Positions 15,142 to 27,455 of a DNA stretch of 33,025 bases are shown one piece after another; position 1 is the stretch's first letter, and each line of letters opens with the position of its first letter. This DNA comes from an uncultured Lachnospiraceae bacterium. Lineage in GTDB: Bacteria > Bacillota > Clostridia > Lachnospirales > Lachnospiraceae. Location of the stretch: positions 1 through 33,025 of the forward strand of contig CANQBX010000042.1 of NCBI GenBank assembly GCA_947589095.1. The letters are read 5' to 3'. The position numbers and the translations under genes are program-made. The notes beneath the pieces were generated by a model. It was not told where the DNA came from. It did no database searches and worked only from the letters and a program-made list of their open reading frames with translations.

Positions 15142-15159
15142 GGAAATTTCTTCGATATT

Positions 15160-15960
15160 CTAAATGTTATTGATTTCAGCAAAAACAGCATCAAAACCTT
15201 CAAAATTGGATATGCAGCCGAGCAGCCCGACTTCAATCAGGCGGTATTTAACAGACCCGCGAGGCACAATGAAAAAGGTACTCAAATCCTCAATCAATGT
15301 GTCGCAGGACGGAATAATATCGTTCTTCGGATTCTGATAGCTGTCAATCAGTTCCAGGGCTTTCTTCTTAAACATCGCAAACGGCATCAGCACTCGCGGA
15401 GCCAGTCTGTGCGCCTGCCATTCAAGCCACTTTACTTCGTTTTCTCTTGTCTTTTTTCCTTCCGGCGGCTCGTAGAATATTTCGGACTGACGGCACATAA
15501 TCGGATACAGTTTTTCGGATGCCGCTGCGTTCTTCACTGCAAGTATTTCAAAATATGTTTTATCCTTTTCCCAGTGGAGAGCCTCATGGATAAGCGCGTT
15601 TCGCTTTGCGCCTTCTCCGTATGCTGCCTCGGAATCCGGATCAATCAGAACTGTTCCCGCCGGAAAAAATATGGTTTGCGATGCGCCGTATTCGCGATCG
15701 TATATCTCTACCTCACCATCGCGAAGCAGACAGCACCCGAAAATGTCCAGATTGCGGGACAGAGACACTTCCTTGACTGTGAGATTTGCTTTCTGCAATA
15801 TTTCATCAACCGGTAACGGCACCGGCGCTTCAAGAGCCCTTTTACAATGCTTTGTCAGATATTTGGCCGCATAATCATCAAGGCGGTTCTTCCCAAGAAT
15901 CAAAGCTCCCGTTTTCTTGTTTATATCAAAGATATCGCTCGATGTCGGTTTGTTCGTCAT
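15160..15960 (-). CDS. ImmA/IrrE-family metallopeptidase-like protein, last gene of the restriction operon
   Basis: The 266-residue protein has a zinc-peptidase motif HEALH at 125-129 within RNALIHEALHWEKD, and a likely third ligand E180 in EWQAHRLAPRVLMP, the pattern of the ImmA/IrrE family. Members of that family cut phage or stress repressors, typically HTH proteins. The N-terminal 110 residues are not of a type I recognise, and there is no HTH of its own. ATG 15960 is inside the end of the upstream peptidase gene (35-nt overlap), which implies translational coupling; GGAG lies somewhat far upstream. Base composition is AT-richer than the tig side. The substrate is unknown; the island's own HTH protein and HsdR are candidates by inference only. 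Confidence 0.75.
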   Translation of the reverse strand: MTNKPTSSDIFDINKKTGALILGKNRLDDYAAKYLTKHCKRALEAPVPLPVDEILQKANLTVKEVSLSRNLDIFGCCLLRDGEVEIYDREYGASQTIFFPAGTVLIDPDSEAAYGEGAKRNALIHEALHWEKDKTYFEILAVKNAAASEKLYPIMCRQSEIFYEPPEGKKTRENEVKWLEWQAHRLAPRVLMPFAMFKKKALELIDSYQNPKNDIIPSCDTLIEDLSTFFIVPRGSVKYRLIEVGLLGCISNFEGFDAVFAEINNI

Positions 15961-16690
15961 CCGTATCCGTCTCTCCTTTTTCCATGTAGTCCAGCGGCAT
16001 GGCTGCAAGCAGCTTCTTTGCTTCACTCCACATCGGACAATATTCCGCAACAAGCGCATGGAATCTATGCGTATGGTTCTTTTCCAGCAGATGTACCAGT
16101 TCGTGTATCACCACATATTCGAGACATTCCATCGGCTTCTTGGCAAGCTGAAGATTGATCCATATTCTCCGTTTTTCAATATTGCAGGTTCCCCATCTGG
16201 TCTTCATGTTTTTTATTCGGAACTCATCCGCATGAACGCCCGTTTTTTTCTCACATCCAACAATTACGGAATCAAGCACACGCTTTAATTCCTGTCTGTA
16301 CCATTCGGTAAACAGCCTTTCTCTTTCCCTGGCATCCGTACCATCCGGCACAGTCATAATAATTTTTGCCGGAGACTTTACTATTTTATGATGCGATCCT
16401 TCATAAATGACCTGCAGGCGGTAGGGCTTTCCCCATAGGTAGTGGGACTCGCCGGACACATATTCCCGCCTGCTCTGCCTCTCCTGCGAGAGCATTCTGT
16501 CCCTGACCTTTAGGATTTCCGGGAGTTTCTTAAGGACAAAAAGTTTAATGTCCTCGTTTGATAACTCTATCGGAGCACTTACAGTTACATTTCCTTCGGG
16601 CGGATTCACTCTGATATAGAGATTTTTCAGGTTCTTCTTCCGAAGCACCTCTATCGGCAATCCACCGATACGCATTTCGTCATTATGCAT
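15926..16690 (-). CDS. YgjP-like (M48/DUF45) metallopeptidase linked to hsdR
   Basis: The 254-residue protein is of the YgjP/DUF45 metallopeptidase family. The zinc motif HELVHLLEKNH starts at residue 196 (H196, E197, H200, H206), preceded by the family block MKTRWGTCN. There is no signal peptide or membrane segment, so it acts in the cytoplasm. ATG 16690 overlaps the hsdR stop by 8 nt (ATGCATAA), with AGGAAG upstream, so its translation is coupled to hsdR. Members of this family are often found next to type I restriction genes, but their role there is not established as far as I know. A second ATG five codons on is possible. Confidence 0.85.
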   Translation of the reverse strand: MHNDEMRIGGLPIEVLRKKNLKNLYIRVNPPEGNVTVSAPIELSNEDIKLFVLKKLPEILKVRDRMLSQERQSRREYVSGESHYLWGKPYRLQVIYEGSHHKIVKSPAKIIMTVPDGTDARERERLFTEWYRQELKRVLDSVIVGCEKKTGVHADEFRIKNMKTRWGTCNIEKRRIWINLQLAKKPMECLEYVVIHELVHLLEKNHTHRFHALVAEYCPMWSEAKKLLAAMPLDYMEKGETDTDDEQTDIERYL

Positions 16691-19600
16691 CGTATTCTTC
16701 CTGCCTTTGTACAATATCGAAGACGTTATTGGTTTCTTCAGTGGCTCTGTCTTCGGTATACATATGAACCAATAACTTTGTATAAATAGCAAATTTTATA
16801 CGCTGCTGTTTTTGAAAATTTCTCCTCCAATCCGGTTGTATTGAAACGCGGATCGCAGTGTCCACATCAACCGTTAATTCGGCATTTTCTTCAAAATAAT
16901 CGTAGAGTGCGCGTCTTGCCGCACTGTCCTTGATTTCGTCAGGATAACTGCCGCTTTCTTCCGGATGAAGGATTGCCTCAGCCAGTTCCACGACCTGTCG
17001 CAGGTATTCCTCATAGCTCATCGCTTCGATCTTACGCTGCATAATGACTTTTTTTAGCATCTCGGACAGCTTGCCATAATACACGCTGTTGGAACTCATC
17101 TTTTTTACAATCTCATGCTGCAGGTTATTGTCAATCATCTCAGCCTTCGCCTCATCATTACCCGGCAGGTCTTTTACCAGATCGACAGGCGTAGTTGTCT
17201 TTCCCTGGAGGAGCAGTTCAACGATGGACATATTGCCAAGTTCGCTGACAACCCTTGTATCCTCGGCGCGGATATATGTGTCGAGAATATAGCGCATATC
17301 TGCCTCGTAAGGCTTGAGATCAATATAGTCGCAGCTTGCCAGCTTTATCATTTCCTTTATTTTATTATAGCCGGAAATCTCGCTGCGCAGATGATTGACA
17401 TCCTCCTCGGAATAACCGTAATCCGCTGCCAGGCGGTCACAGCAGTTTGCAAAAGAACGCGAAAGAGACGCCGTGAGCGCGTAGAGAGTATCCCGCCGCG
17501 CAGTCTTTTCATCATCCTCGCTGTTCTCACCGCAGAAGTATTCGATAAAATCGGTGTCCTCCTTCGAAGCGGGTACATTTTCAATCAGCGCCTCAAGCGA
17601 AATAAGCGTTCCTTCCAGTTCAGATTTTGCCTCGTCATACCGGTTCTTGATAAGACCCTCGACATCTTCTTTGTCGTAGCCGTCAAACGCCCCGGAAGTA
17701 TAGTCGGCAACGGCAAGCTGAACATTGCGGAACAAGTCCATGTAGTCCACGATATATCCGTAATCCTTATCTTCGCCGTCCGGTCTGTTGACGCGGCAGA
17801 TCGCCTGGAACAGATCATGGTCTCGCATGGATTTGTCAATATACAAATATGTCGCGCTCGGAGCGTCAAAGCCGGTCAGCAGTTTATCCACCACGATCAG
17901 CAGCTTCATCTGCGTCGGCTCATCCTTAAATTGCTCTTTGACACGCTTCTCAAATTCAGCGAGTTTCTCACCTCCGAGCATCCGCTCGTAGATTTTCTTC
18001 TTGTATTCTTCTTCGCTTTCCTGCGACGGATCGGACGTGGCCGTTCTGACGCTCTGTGTAGTCGGCTCATAGGAAGTCACGATGGCGCATTTGGTGAAGC
18101 TCATACTCATGAAAATTTCCCAATACCTGCAGGCCTCATAGATGCTGCCCGCCACAAGCATAGCCGTACCGCGGTCATCCTTAAGTCTCGGTTTCAGACT
18201 CATGTCAAACACGATATCGGACGCAATTTTCTCCAATCTCTGTTTTGAACTGTACAGCTTATTGATGGATGTCCAACTTTGCTTCAACTGAAGTTTCGCC
18301 CGCTCGGTCAAGCCCTGCGTTTTCTGATTAAACCATAAATCGACTTTGTCCTGGCTGGACAAATCCTGGTCAACATCCCTCGCTTCATAGCGAAGGTCGA
18401 GAACTACGCCGTCATCCACTCCTTCGTCAAACTTATAAGTGTGGATGTAAGTGCCGAAGGTTTCGATGCTGGATTTCTTGTCGGTTTTCAGCAGCGGAGT
18501 CCCGGTAAAGCCAATCAGGATAGCGTCTGGCATCAGCGCCTTTACCGCCTCATGCAGCTTGCCGGAATTGGTACGGTGGCATTCATCAATAAAGGCGATG
18601 ATGTTGCCCTTCGCCTTGAAGTCCTTTGGCAGGTCTTTCAGCAGCTCCCTGCGGTACTGGTCGATATCCGACTGCCTTCCGGCATTATGGCCGTACTTGT
18701 GAATGAGGGAACAAACAATGGCATCCTCGTTTTTATCCAGAATGGAGCGCAGATCAGCACAGCTTTTCGCCCTGCGCACATTTTCTTTCACATCGATAAA
18801 AAGGCTCTCGATCTGATCATCCAATTCGTCACGGTCAGTGATAATGACCACGCGACTGTCCGTGATATTCTCGATAATCCATTTGGTGAGCCATACCATT
18901 ATGAGCGACTTGCCGGAGCCCTGCGTGTTCCAGATGATGCCGCCCTCGCCATCCCGGATACGCTTTCGGGCAGCGATGTTCGCAAAATACTGATTATGAC
19001 GAGCAACTTTTTTGGTGCCTGCGTCATAAATCACAAAGTCGTGTATGAGAGAAAGGAATCTCTCCTTATGACAGAGTGATACCACACCGTCACGCAGGCG
19101 GTTGACCTCTTTAACCTGCAGCAGCTTGATTCCAGCCGAAAGGTCATCGGTCGCTTTCTTGTCCTCTTTCCATTTAAGATAATATTTTTCCGGCGTATTA
19201 ATCGCGCCGTAAAACAGACCTTCCGATTCATTACCGGCAAAAAGGAACTGCGCCGTACTGAAGAAGTTCAGGATATTTTCACGCTTCTGATTCTGCAAAA
19301 GCTGGCGGATGCCCTTACCCGCACTGACACAGGAACTCTTCAGTTCGAACACGCCAAGAGCAATTCCGTTGATGTAAAGCACCACATCGGGGCGCTTTCT
19401 TGTAACCTTATCGAAGCGCAGGACAGACACCTCCTCCGCGACAAAAAAGTCATTTTTATCGATGTCATCCCAAGCGATATAATGAACGGTCTGCCGACGG
19501 CCATTCGCATCCTTTGTCCCCTGTCTGCCATAGCGGAGCAGGGAATACACGCTGCGGTTAATCTGATAGAGCGTATCGGACTGATTGCTGATCTTACCCA

Positions 19601-19796
19601 CAAGTTCGCTGATTGCGGTCTTGATCTGGTCATCCGTATATCCGCGTTTTTTCAGATTTGCCTTCAGCAGTTCCTCCTTGACAGGCGTATTATCGACGTC
19701 CTCCAGGTTGCCGAGATAAGTATAGCCCAGATCGTCGACAAGCCAATGCAGAACTCTGTTCTGTAATTTCCTTTCAGCATCTACCGTTGCCATCAT
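16683..19796 (-). CDS. hsdR: Type I restriction endonuclease, motor/nuclease subunit HsdR
   Basis: The 1037-residue subunit translocates and cuts unmodified DNA as part of the HsdR-M-S complex. The PD-(D/E)xK nuclease is near the N-terminus, with D137 (RPDVVL) and E151-x-K153 (VFELKSS). The SF2 motor follows: Walker A NTQGSGKS (about 290-297), DECH at 404-407, GFTGTP at about 432-437 and the helicase motif ICRVNRP. The C-terminal 250 residues are helical. ATG 19796 or the adjacent ATG 19793 starts it, with GAGGTG (19799-19804) lying in the last codons of the small ORF upstream. All catalytic motifs are intact, so it should be active. Confidence 0.95.
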   Translation of the reverse strand: MMATVDAERKLQNRVLHWLVDDLGYTYLGNLEDVDNTPVKEELLKANLKKRGYTDDQIKTAISELVGKISNQSDTLYQINRSVYSLLRYGRQGTKDANGRRQTVHYIAWDDIDKNDFFVAEEVSVLRFDKVTRKRPDVVLYINGIALGVFELKSSCVSAGKGIRQLLQNQKRENILNFFSTAQFLFAGNESEGLFYGAINTPEKYYLKWKEDKKATDDLSAGIKLLQVKEVNRLRDGVVSLCHKERFLSLIHDFVIYDAGTKKVARHNQYFANIAARKRIRDGEGGIIWNTQGSGKSLIMVWLTKWIIENITDSRVVIITDRDELDDQIESLFIDVKENVRRAKSCADLRSILDKNEDAIVCSLIHKYGHNAGRQSDIDQYRRELLKDLPKDFKAKGNIIAFIDECHRTNSGKLHEAVKALMPDAILIGFTGTPLLKTDKKSSIETFGTYIHTYKFDEGVDDGVVLDLRYEARDVDQDLSSQDKVDLWFNQKTQGLTERAKLQLKQSWTSINKLYSSKQRLEKIASDIVFDMSLKPRLKDDRGTAMLVAGSIYEACRYWEIFMSMSFTKCAIVTSYEPTTQSVRTATSDPSQESEEEYKKKIYERMLGGEKLAEFEKRVKEQFKDEPTQMKLLIVVDKLLTGFDAPSATYLYIDKSMRDHDLFQAICRVNRPDGEDKDYGYIVDYMDLFRNVQLAVADYTSGAFDGYDKEDVEGLIKNRYDEAKSELEGTLISLEALIENVPASKEDTDFIEYFCGENSEDDEKTARRDTLYALTASLSRSFANCCDRLAADYGYSEEDVNHLRSEISGYNKIKEMIKLASCDYIDLKPYEADMRYILDTYIRAEDTRVVSELGNMSIVELLLQGKTTTPVDLVKDLPGNDEAKAEMIDNNLQHEIVKKMSSNSVYYGKLSEMLKKVIMQRKIEAMSYEEYLRQVVELAEAILHPEESGSYPDEIKDSAARRALYDYFEENAELTVDVDTAIRVSIQPDWRRNFQKQQRIKFAIYTKLLVHMYTEDRATEETNNVFDIVQRQEEYDA

Positions 19797-19915
19797 AACA
19801 CCTCTTTCTCTTTCGCTTTCTTACGTGCGGTTTTTTCCATATCTTTTATCGTCTGCAGACAGGCTTCTTCACCAAATGCCCTGGCCGGCGTCAATCGGAT
19901 CCATCTTTTTGTCAA
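19793..19915 (-). CDS. Possible 40-residue protein between hsdS and hsdR
   Basis: From a TTG at 19915 a 40-codon frame runs to a TGA that overlaps the hsdR start (ATGA), the arrangement of a translationally coupled gene. It begins 7 nt after the hsdS stop. The peptide has the protein-like middle RLTPARAFGEEACLQTIKDM and a highly charged Lys/Glu-rich helical tail. GGAGGTG (19926-19932), formed by the last hsdS codons, is 10 nt upstream. The same site fits better (6 nt) to an ATG at 19919 in another frame, which gives only 16 codons ending at 19869; a one-base frameshift relationship between the two is possible. I recognise no family. It may be a real small protein or a device that couples hsdS to hsdR translation. 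Confidence 0.5.
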   Translation of the reverse strand: MTKRWIRLTPARAFGEEACLQTIKDMEKTARKKAKEKEVL

Positions 19916-19922
19916 CCATAAT

Positions 19923-21113
19923 TTACACCTCCCGCAGCGGCAGGCGGACGCGGCCCGTCAGCAGGTCATCCATTGCGCCTTCTCTGATTTGGATCATTTT
20001 ATTCCTCTCAATTTCCAGTGCCTCGATTTCTTCATCCATTGCGGCTAATATAGCAGAGATTGCACGTTGTTCATGCTTATTAAGCGTAATTTTTAATTTG
20101 AGTTTTTTTAATGCCCCAAGATATATTCCGCCTTGTGCGCTTGCATTTACCATTCTCATTATTTGTTCTTGTGTTTTATGGCTTTGCATAACATATAAGA
20201 GGTATTGCCTGTATATGCCTTTTGATCTAATAAAAGCTACGCTGCGCTGGAATGCGATACCGTCTTCTTTTAGTAAGCAGCACCGGCCTATTGTACCAAC
20301 ACAGCTTAGTAAAATATCTCCTTTTTGCGGAAAACCGTTTGCTGTGATTTTTTCATAATCTCTTTCAGATATTCTGCTTTCATCATTGCCTATGATCATT
20401 CTGTTATTAAAAATATTTTTAGCACTTAATAAATAATGTCCTAAAACAGTTCTATGAAATGTTCCATGAGTACCGTCTTGTATATCGGCAATCTGGCATA
20501 ACTCTGTTTCAGTATAGCTGCTATCAAAACCGGATATCCGCGTTCTCCCGCTTATCAAATCTTCCAACGCTCCATCACGGATGTTGCGCTTTTTCTCAAT
20601 CAGTTCAGCGAGGTTATCGATGTAGGTATCGAACTGCGAAAGTGTCTTTGCAATTTCTTCTTGTTCCGGCTTTTCAGGCAAGTGTATTTCTGTTTTCAGG
20701 AGAATGCTGTTATACAGTCTTTGTATTGTCGTTCCTTCTAACGCTGCCCAGGGGTATGAGCGATAGAACCACCAGAGGAATTTGCTGTCAATCGCATTCC
20801 TGTCTGCTTTCAGCCACACGATATTAGAATCTTGAAAATAAGAGTCTCTACCGTCAAAAATAATAGTTTTACCAACTGTGCCGGCAGCGGAAATCAGTAC
20901 ATCGCCCTTTTCTGGATATGGATACAAGGATTTGTACCGTTCATATAACTCCTGCGAAATATATGCATCTGCTTTACCGCCAAATGTGCTTATTTTATAA
21001 AATGGAATTACCCCATATGTTTTTGTCTGACTTTGAAAGATTCGGCGGCACATTTGGATGTACCCCAGATCTTTCAATTGCATTGGTGTCCAATCTTCAG
21101 GATAAGTTACCAT
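19923..21113 (-). CDS. hsdS: Type I restriction-modification specificity subunit HsdS
   Basis: The 396-residue DNA-recognition subunit has two target recognition domains (about 1-145 and 205-350), each followed by a conserved helical spacer. The spacers are recognisable as an internal repeat: EQEEIAKTLSQFDTYID...RDGALEDLISGRTRI and HEQRAISAILAAMDEEIE...REGAMDDLLTGRVRLP. This gives a bipartite target, but the bases cannot be read from the protein. The DNA is the most AT-rich of the island, as expected for horizontally exchanged recognition domains. ATG 21113 lies inside the end of hsdM (7-nt overlap). There is no second hsdS or inverted partial copy in the window, so no sign of shufflon-type switching. 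Confidence 0.94.
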   Translation of the reverse strand: MVTYPEDWTPMQLKDLGYIQMCRRIFQSQTKTYGVIPFYKISTFGGKADAYISQELYERYKSLYPYPEKGDVLISAAGTVGKTIIFDGRDSYFQDSNIVWLKADRNAIDSKFLWWFYRSYPWAALEGTTIQRLYNSILLKTEIHLPEKPEQEEIAKTLSQFDTYIDNLAELIEKKRNIRDGALEDLISGRTRISGFDSSYTETELCQIADIQDGTHGTFHRTVLGHYLLSAKNIFNNRMIIGNDESRISERDYEKITANGFPQKGDILLSCVGTIGRCCLLKEDGIAFQRSVAFIRSKGIYRQYLLYVMQSHKTQEQIMRMVNASAQGGIYLGALKKLKLKITLNKHEQRAISAILAAMDEEIEALEIERNKMIQIREGAMDDLLTGRVRLPLREV

Positions 21114-23797
21114 TTGTATCCCATCCTCTCCAGAGCCGCCATGACCGCCGCTCTTGATTTTGCAGTTCTGTCCTCGATCTCGCCAAGTGTATGCTCATAC
21201 CGCTTGGCAATAAGCAGAACCTTAGATGACAAGTCATTCAGCACTTGCTCGATTTCATCACGGATATCTGCCTCCAACTCTGCCATCCACTTCCTGTCAA
21301 AAAGGAGATGTTTGATCTCATCCACAGTCAGTTCGCCATACTTTGCCTCGACCTCATCGTCCAGGGCTTTGCGGGCTTCTTTCCACGCTTTGTCCGCTTC
21401 GTCCTTTTCTGCGGATTTTGCCGCGTATGCTGTCAGCGCATCATACTCATCCTTATAAATCTCCGGCACAACTGCGGAAGCAGCCGCTGCCTTAAGCGCC
21501 GCATTAAGCTTTGCCCTTCCAAATGTACCGTTCTTATTGCGGATATCAAACTCGGCCAGTTCCGGCACCTTGCGGATGATCGTCTCCATCTCATCGGTCT
21601 TTCCCTCGTCAAAGAGTGCAACGAGCCGTGCCATAGCCTCCATGACAACGGACGTCTTTTTAGCCTCCAGCTCTTTGAGCCGCTTATTGAGATTTGCCTT
21701 CGGAACGCTGTCCCCCTTATCGTTCAATACCTCCTTCAGCAAGCCCTCATCGCCGGATTCCTCCTCGCGCATCTCGTCAAGTTCTGCTTCGAGAGCCGCC
21801 GACCGTTCCATCAATTCATTGATTGCAGCAAGCTCGTCCGCAAAATATACCGTTTCGATAATCCCTTTCGGAATAAGCGCACCCTCGAAGGCCTTCACCT
21901 TGGAGATATCGTCCACGAAGATCGTCTCGCCATTTTCGTCCTTCTCCTTCTTCTGCGCATACTCGTATTCGATTTCCCGACCGATTTCATAACCGCTGGC
22001 TCTGATGGCGTAAACATCATCCTGCAGCTTTGCGTTCCAGTAATTCAGCAGACAGTCGTACACATCATAGTTGTCAAGAAGCCGAGCAGCTTCATACGCC
22101 CTGAGGATTCTGACCGCAATCGTTCGGATCAGTTCCTTCGGATTTGTCTCGGGCTCAATACCAAGCAGGATATCCTTTACTGAATCCTGCCACTGTACAA
22201 ATATTGTATTGATTTCTTTCTGCTTTTCAGAAAGGATACTGGCATCCTGTCCGATCATACCCTCGATCTCACCGGACGGAAGAATGAGTTTATATACATC
22301 GTGTGTCTCATCCACACAAGTAAATATTTTCTGTTTCAAAACGGAAGAGATATCCCACAGACTCTTCAGCGACTCAATATCCGCGCCTGGAATGCCTCCC
22401 TTCAAATGGGCCGCGATATTTTGCGGCAATGTATCATCAATTTTCTGTATGTAGCGCGGCACATTCAGATTGCCTGCATTCTGGTCAAGAATATCCGTAT
22501 ACTTTACAAAACGGGAATACCCCTTGATAGTTTTGCCATTGATAAAAGTCTGTACAATCTTCTCAATGTCCTGCTCACGCAGTCTGTTCTTGTTGCCGTC
22601 TTTCTTGAACCCCCGACTGGCATCAATCAGGAAGATGCCCTCCCGGGTCTCTGCATATTCTTTATCAATGATAACGATGCAGGCGGGAATGCCTGTTCCG
22701 TAAAACAAATTTGCGGGAAGACTCACGATGCCTTTGATATATCTTTTCTTCAGCACCGCGATACGGATGGTTTCCTCTGCATTGCCTCTGAACAGAACAC
22801 CGTGCGGCATGATAATGCCTGCCTTGCCGTTGCTGTTCAGAGATTTCAGAACATGAAGGAACCAGGCATAGTCCCCGTTCTTTTCGGGAGGAATGCCGTA
22901 GCCGTCAAAACGCTTGTATTTATCCTCGGATGTCTTTATGCCATCGCTCCAGGATTTATCGGAGAACGGCGGATTCATGACGATGAAATCAAACTTCTTT
23001 AACTCGCCGAAATCATCCGTAAAGGCAGGATCGGCCAACGTATTTCCGCGTCTGATTTCGCCTGTGCCTTTCTGATGGAGGATAAGATTCATCTTTGCCA
23101 AGCCCGCAGTGGCATAGTCTTTTTCCTGGCCAAATATAGTCACGATGGAATCGCCGTTCTCATCCACGGGAGCTTCATCCGCCGCCCTAATGAGAAGGCT
23201 TCCACTGCCTGCAGCCGGATCGTACAGAGTCCACCTCTTGGTCGGCATCTGCCGGATGCTGCCAATGCCGATCAGTCGTGCGATGATACGGGACACCTCG
23301 CTCGGCGTGTAGAATTGTCCCTTGCTCTTGCCGGACTCTTGTGCAAACTTCATCATGAAATACTCATAAGCATCACCGATGATATCATCGCCGCTGGCAC
23401 GGTTGTTTTTGAAGTCAATCGCCGGATTCTGGAATACGGCAATCAGACCGGATACCTTATCGACCAGTTCCTTGCCAGAGCCAAGTTCATCCGGATTGTT
23501 GAAGCTGACATCAGGAAGGGAACCCTGGAGTCGGTTGTCTTCAAGGAACTTCTGGATAATCTTATCTACCCGCTCACCGACATCGCTCTTTCCCTTGGCA
23601 GCAATCAAGTCCTCAAAGGACGCTCCTTTGCTAATGGTAAACTCAGCAAAAGGCTGGCCCTTGTACTTGTCAGACACATATTTGAAAAAAAGCAGAACAA
23701 GGACATAATCCTTGTACCTTGCCGGTTCTACACCACCTCTCAGTTTATTACAAGCTTCCCAAAGAAGAGAATATATTTCGGATTTTTTCACAGCCAT
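21107..23797 (-). CDS. hsdM: Type I restriction-modification adenine methyltransferase subunit HsdM, long form
   Basis: The protein makes N6-methyladenine on the HsdS target and is part of the restriction complex. The N-terminal HsdM helical domain (about 5-130) is followed by the methyltransferase with SAM motif DPAAGSGSLL (193-202) and catalytic NPPF (275-278). Classical HsdM is about 500-550 residues, whereas this one has 896. Residues about 470-896 form a charged, largely helical extension with probable coiled coil at 655-720 (Glu/Lys/Leu-rich) and again near 795-870. ATG 23797 has AGAGAG close by and GGAG further up. It is 53 nt downstream of the HTH gene. Confidence 0.95.
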   Translation of the reverse strand: MAVKKSEIYSLLWEACNKLRGGVEPARYKDYVLVLLFFKYVSDKYKGQPFAEFTISKGASFEDLIAAKGKSDVGERVDKIIQKFLEDNRLQGSLPDVSFNNPDELGSGKELVDKVSGLIAVFQNPAIDFKNNRASGDDIIGDAYEYFMMKFAQESGKSKGQFYTPSEVSRIIARLIGIGSIRQMPTKRWTLYDPAAGSGSLLIRAADEAPVDENGDSIVTIFGQEKDYATAGLAKMNLILHQKGTGEIRRGNTLADPAFTDDFGELKKFDFIVMNPPFSDKSWSDGIKTSEDKYKRFDGYGIPPEKNGDYAWFLHVLKSLNSNGKAGIIMPHGVLFRGNAEETIRIAVLKKRYIKGIVSLPANLFYGTGIPACIVIIDKEYAETREGIFLIDASRGFKKDGNKNRLREQDIEKIVQTFINGKTIKGYSRFVKYTDILDQNAGNLNVPRYIQKIDDTLPQNIAAHLKGGIPGADIESLKSLWDISSVLKQKIFTCVDETHDVYKLILPSGEIEGMIGQDASILSEKQKEINTIFVQWQDSVKDILLGIEPETNPKELIRTIAVRILRAYEAARLLDNYDVYDCLLNYWNAKLQDDVYAIRASGYEIGREIEYEYAQKKEKDENGETIFVDDISKVKAFEGALIPKGIIETVYFADELAAINELMERSAALEAELDEMREEESGDEGLLKEVLNDKGDSVPKANLNKRLKELEAKKTSVVMEAMARLVALFDEGKTDEMETIIRKVPELAEFDIRNKNGTFGRAKLNAALKAAAASAVVPEIYKDEYDALTAYAAKSAEKDEADKAWKEARKALDDEVEAKYGELTVDEIKHLLFDRKWMAELEADIRDEIEQVLNDLSSKVLLIAKRYEHTLGEIEDRTAKSRAAVMAALERMGYKW

Positions 23798-23850
23798 AAC
23801 TCTCTTTAATCTCCATTCTTGTCTTAATCATTACCGCCGACATACGTTCT

Positions 23851-24045
23851 TCATTCCATTGCACTTTTTCCGCTTGCAACCCACTCATCCAGTTCGGAGC
23901 ATTTGAATTTCCATTGCTTTCCTATCTTGTGACAGGGAATGCCTTTATCCTTCCGGATCCAATCACGAATGGTTCCGGGCTTGACCCCCAGATATTCCGC
24001 AGTCTCATCAATGTTTATCCATTTATCGTTAGCAGCAGCTGCCAT
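23851..24045 (-). CDS. Small excisionase-family HTH DNA-binding protein, first gene of the restriction operon
   Basis: The 64-residue protein is a single MerR/excisionase-like winged helix. The text WINIDETAEYLGVKPGTIRDWIRKDKGIPCHKIGKQWKFKCSELDEW (quoted here in pieces: ETAEYLGVKPGTIRDW and KIGKQWKFKCSELDEW) is the typical HTH_17 pattern. ATG 24045 is preceded by GGAGGTG with 6-nt spacing; an ATG at 24072 lies before that site. Being promoter-proximal to hsdM, it may regulate the operon as a controller-type protein. It could equally be a former excisionase from a mobile element, but no integrase is present. Confidence 0.83.
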   Translation of the reverse strand: MAAAANDKWINIDETAEYLGVKPGTIRDWIRKDKGIPCHKIGKQWKFKCSELDEWVASGKSAME

Positions 24046-24087
24046 TTCTGCACCTCCAAACAAATTTCTCATAATAAACCCTTTTAT

Positions 24088-24116
24088 ATTTTAGCAAATA
24101 TAGGCACATTTTTCAA
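24088..24116 (-). promoter_or_regulatory. Sigma-A promoter of the restriction-modification operon
   Basis: On the minus strand TTGAAA (24111-24116), a 17-nt spacer and TAAAAT (24088-24093), 43 nt before the HTH start codon. This is the only clear promoter I see in the island, consistent with one transcript for all seven genes. Confidence 0.75.
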
Positions 24117-24120
24117 TAGG

Positions 24121-24136
24121 TTTGATATTATTTGAT
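24121..24136. promoter_or_regulatory. Direct repeats next to the -35 box, candidate operator
   Basis: TTTGAT-ATTA-TTTGAT places two identical 6-mers one helical turn (10 bp) apart, 5 bp upstream of the -35 box. Winged-helix excisionase-type proteins often bind phased direct repeats, so this may be the site of the island's HTH protein. AT-rich DNA makes chance repeats common. Confidence 0.4.
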
Positions 24137-24225
24137 GTTGTTTCTTGCTATTTTCAATCAATACACGCCCCTATAGCGAACGATTCTGTAAATCCTGCCG
24201 CCTTGCTTCTGATTCTGGCCGCAGT

Positions 24226-25767
24226 TTAAATCTTGCCGTTTGATACCGGCCTCTCGCGAGCCTCTCGTTTCTCCGCATGGATCGTATTCTTCACGCTGAT
24301 CTGCTTCCATTTTCCGGAATGGTACCGCATTCCCATCAGCACCGTGCGCATGCACTGATCCGCGACCAGGGCGATCCACGCGCCCCAGAGGCCCAGATGG
24401 AAGACGCTGATCAGCGCGATGCAGACCAGGGAGCGCACGCCCAGCACCGTGATCGCCGTCACGACCGCGGTATAGCGGGTGTCCCCCGCGCCGCGCAGGC
24501 CGCCGGAGACAATGAACTGGTCCGCCTGGAAGGGCTGGCTGGCCGCCAGAAGGAGCAGGATCGGAGCGCCCAACGCGATGACCTCCGCCGAATCCTTGAA
24601 GAGGCCGATGATCTCTTCATTAAAGAAAACCATCAGGGCCATTAAAACAAATGACGCCGCGATGCCTAAGTTTCTCGTCAGACGCATATAGACCGCCGAC
24701 ATGTCGTAGCGGCGCTTGCCGATGGACTGGCCCATCAGCGTCGTAGCCGCGTTGGCGAAGGCTTGGCCCATCATAAATGTCATGGACTGGATGCTCATGC
24801 ACACCTGATGAGTCGCATAGATCAGGTCGCCGAGGCCGGTGACCTGGCGGGTGTAAATGATGATGCCGGCCCGCATGAACAGCTGCTCCATCATGGATGG
24901 AATGCCGATGCCGACCACGCGGCCCATCAGGTCCGTGTCGAAGCGGAATTTCTCCTTAAAGTCCAGATAAACGTAATGCTTCTTCCCGAAGGACACCCAC
25001 ATGGCGATGCCGAAGGCCACCGTCTGGCCGATGATCGTCGCCCACGAGGCGCCTGCCACGCCCATTTTCGGAACGCCGAAATGGCCGTAGATCATGATGT
25101 AGTTGAAAAGCAGGTTCACCACGTTGGCGATGGTGTTGTAGATCATCGGCGTCCTGGTGTCGCCGATGCCCCGCAGGGCCGCCGTCACGGTGATGGCGAG
25201 GCACAGGGGGATAAATCCGTAGAGCTGGATCCGCAGATAATCGTCGCCCAGCTTCAGCGTCTCCTCGCTGATGCCGGTGCCGCCCATGAAACGGATCAGC
25301 TGCTCGCAGAAGACCAGCCCCAGCGCCATGAACAAAAGCGACATGAACAGATTCAGGATCATGGCGTGCTTAAAGACCAGATTGGAGCGTTCCCGGTTCT
25401 GCTGTCCGCGGAAGCGGGCGATCATAGCCGTGGCGCCTACGTTCAGCGCCTGGATCATCGTCATCAGAAGAAATTTGGGCTGGGCCGCCAGACCCACGGC
25501 CGCCAGCGCGTTGATCCCCTCCTGCCCGGGGAGCCGCCCGACCATGATCTGATCGGCGATACTGGTCAGCTGGGTCAGCACCAGCTCCACCAGGCTGGGC
25601 CAGGCGATAAGGATGATGTCCCGGTAGATCCGCTCCTTTCGGACGCCATCCGGGATGCGGATCCGGCCGATGGGGCCGCCTATCTCCTGCTCCGACGCAT
25701 GTCCGTAGGGCAGATCGTCCAGAACGACGCGGACGGTCTTTTCTTCTGTTTCTCTGTCGCGGTTCAT
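24226..25767 (-). CDS. MATE-family multidrug/cation efflux transporter
   Basis: The 513-residue membrane protein has twelve hydrophobic helices in two related halves, the MATE fold. The first helix reads IAWPSLVELVLTQLTSIADQIMVG, here noted by its core LVELVLTQLTSIADQ, followed by the usual GLAAQPKFLL. A hydrophilic N-terminal tail of about 55 residues precedes helix 1. ATG 25767 has AAGGA about 9 nt upstream; an ATG at 25881 would lie upstream of the predicted transcription start. The substrate is unknown; typical candidates are cationic drugs or dyes exchanged for Na+ or H+. Its predicted promoter faces that of the divergent CYTH gene. Confidence 0.9.
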   Translation of the reverse strand: MNRDRETEEKTVRVVLDDLPYGHASEQEIGGPIGRIRIPDGVRKERIYRDIILIAWPSLVELVLTQLTSIADQIMVGRLPGQEGINALAAVGLAAQPKFLLMTMIQALNVGATAMIARFRGQQNRERSNLVFKHAMILNLFMSLLFMALGLVFCEQLIRFMGGTGISEETLKLGDDYLRIQLYGFIPLCLAITVTAALRGIGDTRTPMIYNTIANVVNLLFNYIMIYGHFGVPKMGVAGASWATIIGQTVAFGIAMWVSFGKKHYVYLDFKEKFRFDTDLMGRVVGIGIPSMMEQLFMRAGIIIYTRQVTGLGDLIYATHQVCMSIQSMTFMMGQAFANAATTLMGQSIGKRRYDMSAVYMRLTRNLGIAASFVLMALMVFFNEEIIGLFKDSAEVIALGAPILLLLAASQPFQADQFIVSGGLRGAGDTRYTAVVTAITVLGVRSLVCIALISVFHLGLWGAWIALVADQCMRTVLMGMRYHSGKWKQISVKNTIHAEKREARERPVSNGKI

Positions 25768-27165: not shown

Positions 27166-27197
27166 GGACTTTTTATACATTCCGGATATTTTCACGG

Positions 27198-27455
27198 CAT
27201 TACCGCCGCCCACGAATCAATTGCGGACATTTGCCGCATCACCGACGCCTCACAAACCAGCCGCGGGCTTTTCCCGGCATCACCGACGCCTCACGAACCA
27301 GCCGCGGGCTTTTCCCGGCATCACCGACGCCTCACGAACCAGCCGCGGGCTTTTCCCGGCATCACCGACGCCTCACGAACCAGCCGCGGGCATTTGCCGA
27401 CATCACCGACGCCTCACAAACCAGCCGCGGGCTTTTCCCGGCACCGCCGCGCAGC
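27198..27455. repeat. Tandem array of 41-bp units (minisatellite)
   Basis: Five full units start at 27237, 27278, 27319, 27360 and 27401, flanked by a degenerate 39-nt unit (27198-27236) and a partial one after 27442. Each begins CATCACCGACGCCTCAC and ends with CCGCGGGCTTTTCCCGG, a short hairpin (CGGG-CTTTT-CCCG). Units 2 and 3 are identical. Units 1 and 5 share ACAAACC in place of ACGAACC; unit 4 and the degenerate unit share CATTTGCCG at the end. Forty-one is not a multiple of three, so the unit is open in all plus frames without being protein-coding. The array lies between the GH30 stop and the DUF1292 promoter. Confidence 0.93.

Follow-up and report, generated by a model that had tools for sequence, protein, structure and literature searches.

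We analysed a stretch of 33,025 nt from an uncultured Lachnospiraceae bacterium (contig CANQBX010000042.1), hereafter the window, to whose forward strand all feature coordinates refer. Within it lies an island of six genes, comprising a small helix-turn-helix (HTH) regulator gene followed by hsdM, hsdS, hsdR and the genes of a YgjP-like and of an ImmA-like peptidase (Table 1). In three genomes of the same genus (L144-L146), the alignment to the window breaks off at 15149-15150 and resumes at 24268-24274, only 8-80 nt lying in between; as these genomes lack the intervening block, the six genes represent a 9.1-kb insertion between tig and the MATE-type gene. With family-level matches for hsdM, hsdS and hsdR in one operon, the island encodes a type I restriction-modification (RM) system. 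Two further profile comparisons remained under their cutoffs, HsdM against TIGR00497 marginally (242.2, cutoff 242.75) and the first-gene protein against NF047737 MAD1 (60.8 bits, cutoff 80).

Table 1. Features of the island and their positions in the window.
Feature	Position	Strand	Basis or remark
Inserted island: regulator-hsdM-hsdS-hsdR-YgjP-ImmA (truncated)	15151..24267		flanked by tig and MATE-type gene (both named by eye)
First gene, small HTH_17 (excisionase/MAD1-like) regulator	23851..24072	-	HTH_17 59.2 bits, cutoff 27
hsdM, N6-adenine methyltransferase, 896 aa	21107..23797	-	N6_Mtase 324.3 bits; PDLC03027 full length
hsdS, specificity subunit, two Methylase_S stretches	19923..21113	-	family-level matches
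hsdR, type I restriction subunit R, 1037 aa	16683..19796	-	TIGR00348 496.8 bits, cutoff 284.55; PDLC03044
Overlap of hsdR and YgjP genes, 8 nt, ATGCATAA	16683..16690	-
YgjP-like metallopeptidase, intact, 254 aa	15926..16690	-	PF01863 205.1 bits, cutoff 26
HELVH motif of YgjP-like peptidase, residues 196-200	16091..16105	-
Overlap of YgjP and ImmA genes, 35 nt	15926..15960	-
ImmA/IrrE-like (M78-type) peptidase domain only, 266 aa	15160..15960	-	C-terminal sensor-like region and HTH of relatives lost
HEALH motif of ImmA-like peptidase, residues 125-129	15574..15588	-

An initial annotation of the window described two metallopeptidase genes at hsdR, both with complete HExxH motifs and with gene overlaps of 8 and 35 nt. 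We confirmed overlaps and motifs from the open frames, the two lengths assuming internal ATGs at 16690 and 15960 (a longer, earlier start is present in each frame too); by eye, an AAGGAG-type ribosome site lies immediately 5' of the ImmA ATG. The YgjP gene proved intact, but the ImmA-like gene is incomplete, its C-terminal half being lost at the island edge, and both this truncation and the HTH that full-length ImmA proteins carry themselves had been overlooked.

The YgjP-like protein is a clear member of PF01863, and H196, E197, H200 and H206 are invariant in alignments A4 and A5 (31 and 40 rows). Its structure model has the minigluzincin/SPRTN-like catalytic fold that characterises SPRTN/Wss1-type DNA-protein crosslink proteases, and by predicted fold the protein would be a Spartan/selecase-like peptidase. 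In the ImmA-like protein HEALH is followed by a downstream EWQA; HExxH and the downstream Glu are kept in the alignment with 15 relatives (A1), and H125, E126, H129 and E180 are invariant in 49 rows (A3), the first three also in A1. The 22-bit cutoff of PF06114 (Peptidase_M78) was missed by the window protein (15.2) as well as by its relatives L034 (16.3) and L067 (21.9), and the window ImmA is M78-like, not assigned to the family by sequence score. For the model of the full-length relative L034, CapP and IrrE/PprI head the list of similar structures, and the C-terminus is modelled as a Cro/C1-type HTH.

To follow the gene set across genomes, ImmA alignment A1 was scanned against 84,980 species genomes, in which 321 stretches matched, 280 of them with a relative. 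The best 80 were kept, comprising 36 loci at 51-87% identity (L033-L068), several of which are near-copies, and 44 at 27-35%. The initial annotation had suggested counting how often the two peptidases co-occur at hsdR and had considered that they might be confined to this strain or its close relatives. HsdR, YgjP and ImmA turned out to be contiguous on one strand in all 36 close, species-level loci and in one phage record (L163), i.e. in 37/37, and the HExxH motif is kept in both peptidases in 36/36 close loci; the arrangement is therefore not due to chance. Together with the nine close viral YgjP genes described below, all adjoining ImmA, this contradicts a confined distribution, the set reaching far beyond a single strain. 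As measured from the ImmA match start, the overlap between the YgjP and ImmA genes amounts to 8-35 nt in 34/36 loci; in the other two, 3 nt separate them. The M and S genes are also in view in 31/37, while the other loci are interrupted by a contig end or, in the case of L060, by a partial deletion; hsdR is split into two frames in L033, and hsdM is split in L055 and L065.

Judged by record titles, bearers of the trio include Clostridia, Bacilli, Erysipelothrix, a Corynebacterium and a Synergistaceae bacterium. Over the stretch from hsdR to ImmA, Hespellia shares 97.2% identity with Erysipelothrix and 95.6% with the phage, from which we infer that this block moves between bacterial classes, plausibly with a phage as its carrier. 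Searches for ImmA yielded 43 phage records, one of them above 60% identity, and 8 plasmid records at 27-28%. L163 (PV036457.1:1-16196; ImmA at 69.8% identity) belongs to a 64-kb gut phage record, which bears the whole hsdM-hsdS-hsdR-YgjP-ImmA block as cargo, with the five genes annotated as hypothetical proteins. Another trio locus (L049) stands on a contig labelled Candidatus Micrarchaeota, although the copy resembles those of Bacillota; the contig is probably mis-binned, and archaeal spread is not claimed from it. In a family-level survey, ImmA was found in 30 and YgjP in 286 of 397 genomes. Among the 30 ImmA loci, viewed with about 1.5 kb of flank on each side where the contig allowed, YgjP and HsdR were present only in the window, L002 and L010. 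Among 30 YgjP loci (L113-L142), five had HsdR without ImmA in the flank (L116, L117, L118, L140, L141), and the complete trio was seen in L113, L114 and L123 only.

Co-divergence was analysed in 12 non-redundant rows, drawn from the 15 of 39 loci (window included) that had all five genes at 85% coverage and without stops. Pairwise distances of HsdM, HsdR, YgjP and ImmA were correlated at r 0.94-0.99, a value reached in 0/2000 permutations for all six pairs, whereas HsdS correlated with those four at r 0.04-0.06 only, with 759-853 of 2000 permutations as high. Such correlated distances denote shared inheritance and not contact, with the HsdS of the same operons serving for comparison. For 29 loci we determined the type of the first gene, by eye (L033 by its tblastn match); it is HTH_17-like in 8, Phd/YefM-like in 16, Cro/C1-like in 3 and of unresolved class in 2, while the peptidases stay. 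In a Pfam check of these assignments, one Phd-like protein scored 24.6 bits (cutoff 29.8) and one HTH_26 protein, classed as Cro/C1-like, 56.4 (cutoff 22). In the phage record the first gene (L163:4058-4270) is Phd-like, and no annotated gene, hence no toxin gene, lies between it and hsdM.

Since HsdM, HsdR, YgjP and ImmA diverge together, HsdS is uncorrelated and the type of the first gene changes, we group the peptidases with HsdR and HsdM. These data support the view that both peptidases have long accompanied this hsdR and are inherited together with HsdR and HsdM, whereas HsdS and the first-gene regulator are exchangeable cassettes. Of the ordered set proposed in the initial annotation, HTH-hsdM-hsdS-hsdR-YgjP-ImmA, the order hsdR-YgjP-ImmA is constant, but the first gene is HTH_17-like in just 8/29 loci. 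We considered HsdS or the HTH gene as the conserved partner of the peptidases, and both are disfavoured by the same two results, which are also the main reason to doubt either as a substrate: HsdS, which the initial annotation had listed among the possible targets, varies independently, and the island's HTH regulator, listed likewise, is replaced by a Phd/YefM-like or Cro/C1-like first gene in 19/29 relatives. That one or both peptidases cut this regulator, as ImmA cuts the repressor ImmR and as IrrE cuts DdrO, is thus very unlikely in view of a first gene that varies while the peptidases are constant, even though a small HTH gene opens the operon in the window. Cleavage of DdrO by IrrE/PprI is documented (PMC10904395).

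A scan started from ImmA cannot show how frequently ImmA is missing, and we therefore performed a reverse search of viral contigs with YgjP alignment A4, which gave 25 loci. All nine viral YgjPs at least 60% identical to that of the window adjoin a full-length ImmA (two of these loci are near-copies of each other); seven of them also show HsdR, and the remaining two begin at a contig edge. Among the other 16, twelve have YgjP without ImmA in the visible DNA (eleven with HsdR upstream, the twelfth at a contig edge), two are short fragments and two are fusions (L186, L189), in which an 857-codon open frame directly 3' of hsdR matches the YgjP and then the ImmA profile. Likewise, a chromosome of the same family (L032, 11878-14433) encodes a YgjP-ImmA fusion of 851 aa straight after hsdR, with YgjP, M78 and HTH_3 matches in Pfam, the latter two slightly under their cutoffs. 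Searching viral contigs with HsdR gave 4 loci, all with ImmA and on the same contigs as in the YgjP search. HsdR-YgjP pairs without ImmA were present in the one plasmid region read and in L195-L197, and SprT-type genes lay at the match in further plasmids. Within one clade, then, ImmA looks like an invariable partner, and beyond that clade it is found occasionally; weighing against this pattern, a YgjP at 62% identity with an internal stop (L194) stands without HsdR and without ImmA.

The 44 distant ImmA relatives have open frames of mostly 590-670 aa. HsdR- or HsdM-like genes, assigned by similarity and in some cases 1-2 genes away, are found near seven of them (L076, L080, L091, L097, L098, L104, L106), and further DNA-modifying neighbours comprise an LlaJI endonuclease (L070, L090, L107) and a C5 methylase (L087, L099). 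Pfam was run on 68 neighbour proteins, ten scanned singly and family totals taken for all 68; altogether at least 12/44 distant loci have DNA-modifying neighbours. The remaining neighbours include GHKL (L074), HNH (L093) and HTH-M78 (L094) proteins, and those of L084 and L096 had no Pfam family. In a tree of 50 rows, 24 trio ImmAs form one side of a branch with 100/100 support, with L076 and L104 elsewhere and mutually apart; the fusion L010 lies on a long branch outside the trio, its placement being unsure. The simplest reading of this pattern is that ImmA-like proteins joined type I hsdR more than once, but losses from one old ImmA-hsdR link may also account for it. Two further architectures were observed in the family: at L005:778-2667 (minus strand) an ImmA relative adjoining a restriction-type gene (by eye) has a GGDEF domain (PF00990, 78.6 bits) in place of the C-terminal HTH, and at L094:6285-7493 a classical HTH and Peptidase_M78 gene lies directly upstream of the distant ImmA-like gene, placing two such peptidases side by side.

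These distributions bear on the possibility that YgjP works alone, as a Spartan-like protease clearing HsdR stuck on DNA, with ImmA-HTH an unrelated regulator riding along. HsdR-YgjP without ImmA is common (12/25 viral loci, plasmid systems) and an M48 gene follows hsdR in enteropathogenic Escherichia coli (EPEC; PMC12255303), but ImmA divergence tracks HsdR as tightly as that of YgjP does, ImmA is fused to YgjP in L032, L186 and L189, and type I hsdR operons seem to have acquired ImmA-like proteins repeatedly, so that we regard a solitary role of YgjP as unlikely.

As to the extent of the window ImmA, the protein measures 266 aa against 523-544 aa, counted from the match start, in 30/36 close relatives; ImmA runs past the contig end in L033 and L062, and in L044, L051 and L064 it has premature stops with the C-terminal DNA still there. 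DNA homology of the window to full-length relatives ends near 15170, whereas the relatives go on for approximately 265 residues further, and some 10 nt separate the ImmA stop from the island edge (15150). The missing C-terminal part, 266 aa in length, was not found within the window, and a search elsewhere in the genome gave no match, an empty result that alone proves nothing. The sequence comparison indicates that the window gene is a truncation which has lost the sensor-like region and the HTH; because only the peptidase domain is retained, its product should be without damage sensing and DNA binding.

That the window fragment is a decaying, functionless remnant, which would be compatible with our interpretation of the family as a whole, is a real possibility, if somewhat less than probable: besides the loss at the island edge, the breaks in L044, L051 and L064 and the ratio of nonsynonymous to synonymous substitution rates (dN/dS) of the least saturated pair, window-L033 (ImmA 0.105 vs YgjP 0.071), point in this direction. 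Against it, dN/dS was far below 1 in the three computable window pairs (0.05-0.11; three further pairs gave no value because dS was saturated), but a recent loss would look alike, and these figures show neither constraint nor decay following the loss. In addition, the ImmA of L063 (8001-8792), a distant copy, stops at the same peptidase/sensor domain border, ending in frame at 263 aa, and no continuation can be recognised in the 94 nt left after it; short proteins of this type perhaps have a use of their own.

Building on the directly established anatomy, shared inheritance, fold resemblances, active-site conservation and window truncation, we propose a damage-responsive restriction control encoded by the operon itself. 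The complete last gene would encode a one-chain switch, in which a zinc peptidase resembling CapP and PprI is joined to a sensor-like region and to a DNA-binding domain of Cro/C1 type; its putative damage response is suggested by the CapP/PprI likeness and the built-in HTH. DNA damage, probably in the form of single-stranded DNA (ssDNA) as for PprI and CapP, would activate the peptidase, and cleavage of the HTH domain in the same chain, or of a partner protein with an HTH, would alter the expression of the restriction genes. YgjP, whose production would keep pace with that of HsdR, would trim HsdR or the HsdR-HsdM complex on DNA, a role suggested by its fold and its tight linkage, and HsdR is the favoured candidate substrate for post-translational cleavage. 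The net effect would be analogous to ClpXP-mediated alleviation of EcoKI. We hold this interpretation, with an ImmA-HTH chain and YgjP acting on DNA-bound HsdR, to be plausible, if a little short of probable. More tentative is its extension to a class of type I systems under two-protease control, moved between bacterial classes by phages, in which a one-chain CapP/CapH-like, ssDNA-responsive protease-repressor and a Spartan-like protease for DNA-bound HsdR would wire restriction, damage sensing and alleviation into one operon. Alternatively, the peptidases could be an extra effector which, upon detection of phage DNA or when restriction is blocked, attacks cell or phage proteins in abortive or additive defence. 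The linkage to a defence system, the carriage by a phage record and viral contigs and the conservation of both active sites fit such a role; yet by fold the two resemble regulators and proteases that act in repair or cleave themselves, PADLOC returned no match for either peptidase of the window, and we consider an effector decidedly unlikely.

If the proposed control is correct, an RM operon bringing its own proteases would help to explain its establishment in distant hosts, such as the 97% identical copies in Hespellia and Erysipelothrix, and the damage-switch logic of CapP and PprI would extend to restriction systems.

The island lies beside clpP-clpX-lon (named by eye). We treat this proximity as coincidence, because three same-genus genomes have no island there and the near relative L031 has it among other genes. 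At the island ends the search for direct repeats found an 8-base match only (no control run), and a scan of 23850-24300 gave one promoter-like site (shuffles average 1.1) and one terminator-like site (shuffles 0.5). Elsewhere in the window, a 41-bp unit is repeated in 6.3 copies with 88% matches (27189-27443), between a short gene and a GH30-like gene (by eye).

Among known systems, the CapH-CapP pair of cyclic-oligonucleotide-based antiphage signalling systems (CBASS) and related operons has a separate capH repressor gene beside and upstream of capP. In the family described here no separate capH is seen; the HTH is fused behind the peptidase (L034) in the last gene of a type I RM operon, and the window copy is without HTH. 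The CapP likeness of the L034 ImmA derives from a model, and ssDNA activation and cleavage would follow by inference. In the PprI/IrrE-DdrO system of Deinococcus the repressor is likewise separate, whereas full-length relatives of the window ImmA have the HTH in the same chain. A PprI truncation without the GAF-like domain kept cleavage without ssDNA and lost ssDNA binding and stimulation (PMC10904395), and the window ImmA resembles this truncated form.

The RptR-RMS-DarTG-M48 island of EPEC has in common with the window a type I hsd operon that opens with the gene of a small regulator and is followed by a zinc metallopeptidase gene, but it has DarTG2 between hsdS and hsdR, where the window has just 126 nt, and no ImmA-like gene among its seven open reading frames (PMC12255303). 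M48 is mentioned there 7 times, as part of the cloned island or of a neighbourhood map, never as assayed alone. In HsdR-YgjP (SprT-family) type I systems of plasmids and phages, YgjP also directly follows hsdR; their HsdR is, however, 31-50% identical to that of the window, and ImmA is absent from those viral loci and from the one plasmid region read. ArdC of plasmid R388 has an IrrE/Spartan-like metalloprotease domain and acts against type I restriction, but as a plasmid anti-restriction protein whose protease site is dispensable (PMC7213743). Proteolytic control of HsdR is established for EcoKI, whose HsdR is removed by ClpXP during translocation, sparing the host chromosome; that protease is encoded by the host, outside the RM operon (PMC4231737). 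In the titles and abstract starts of open-licence PubMed Central (PMC) literature, we found neither ImmA-like and YgjP-like peptidases together with hsdR nor a YgjP-ImmA fusion nor a CapP-like one-chain switch. A zinc metallopeptidase with a type I operon has already been published (PMC12255303).
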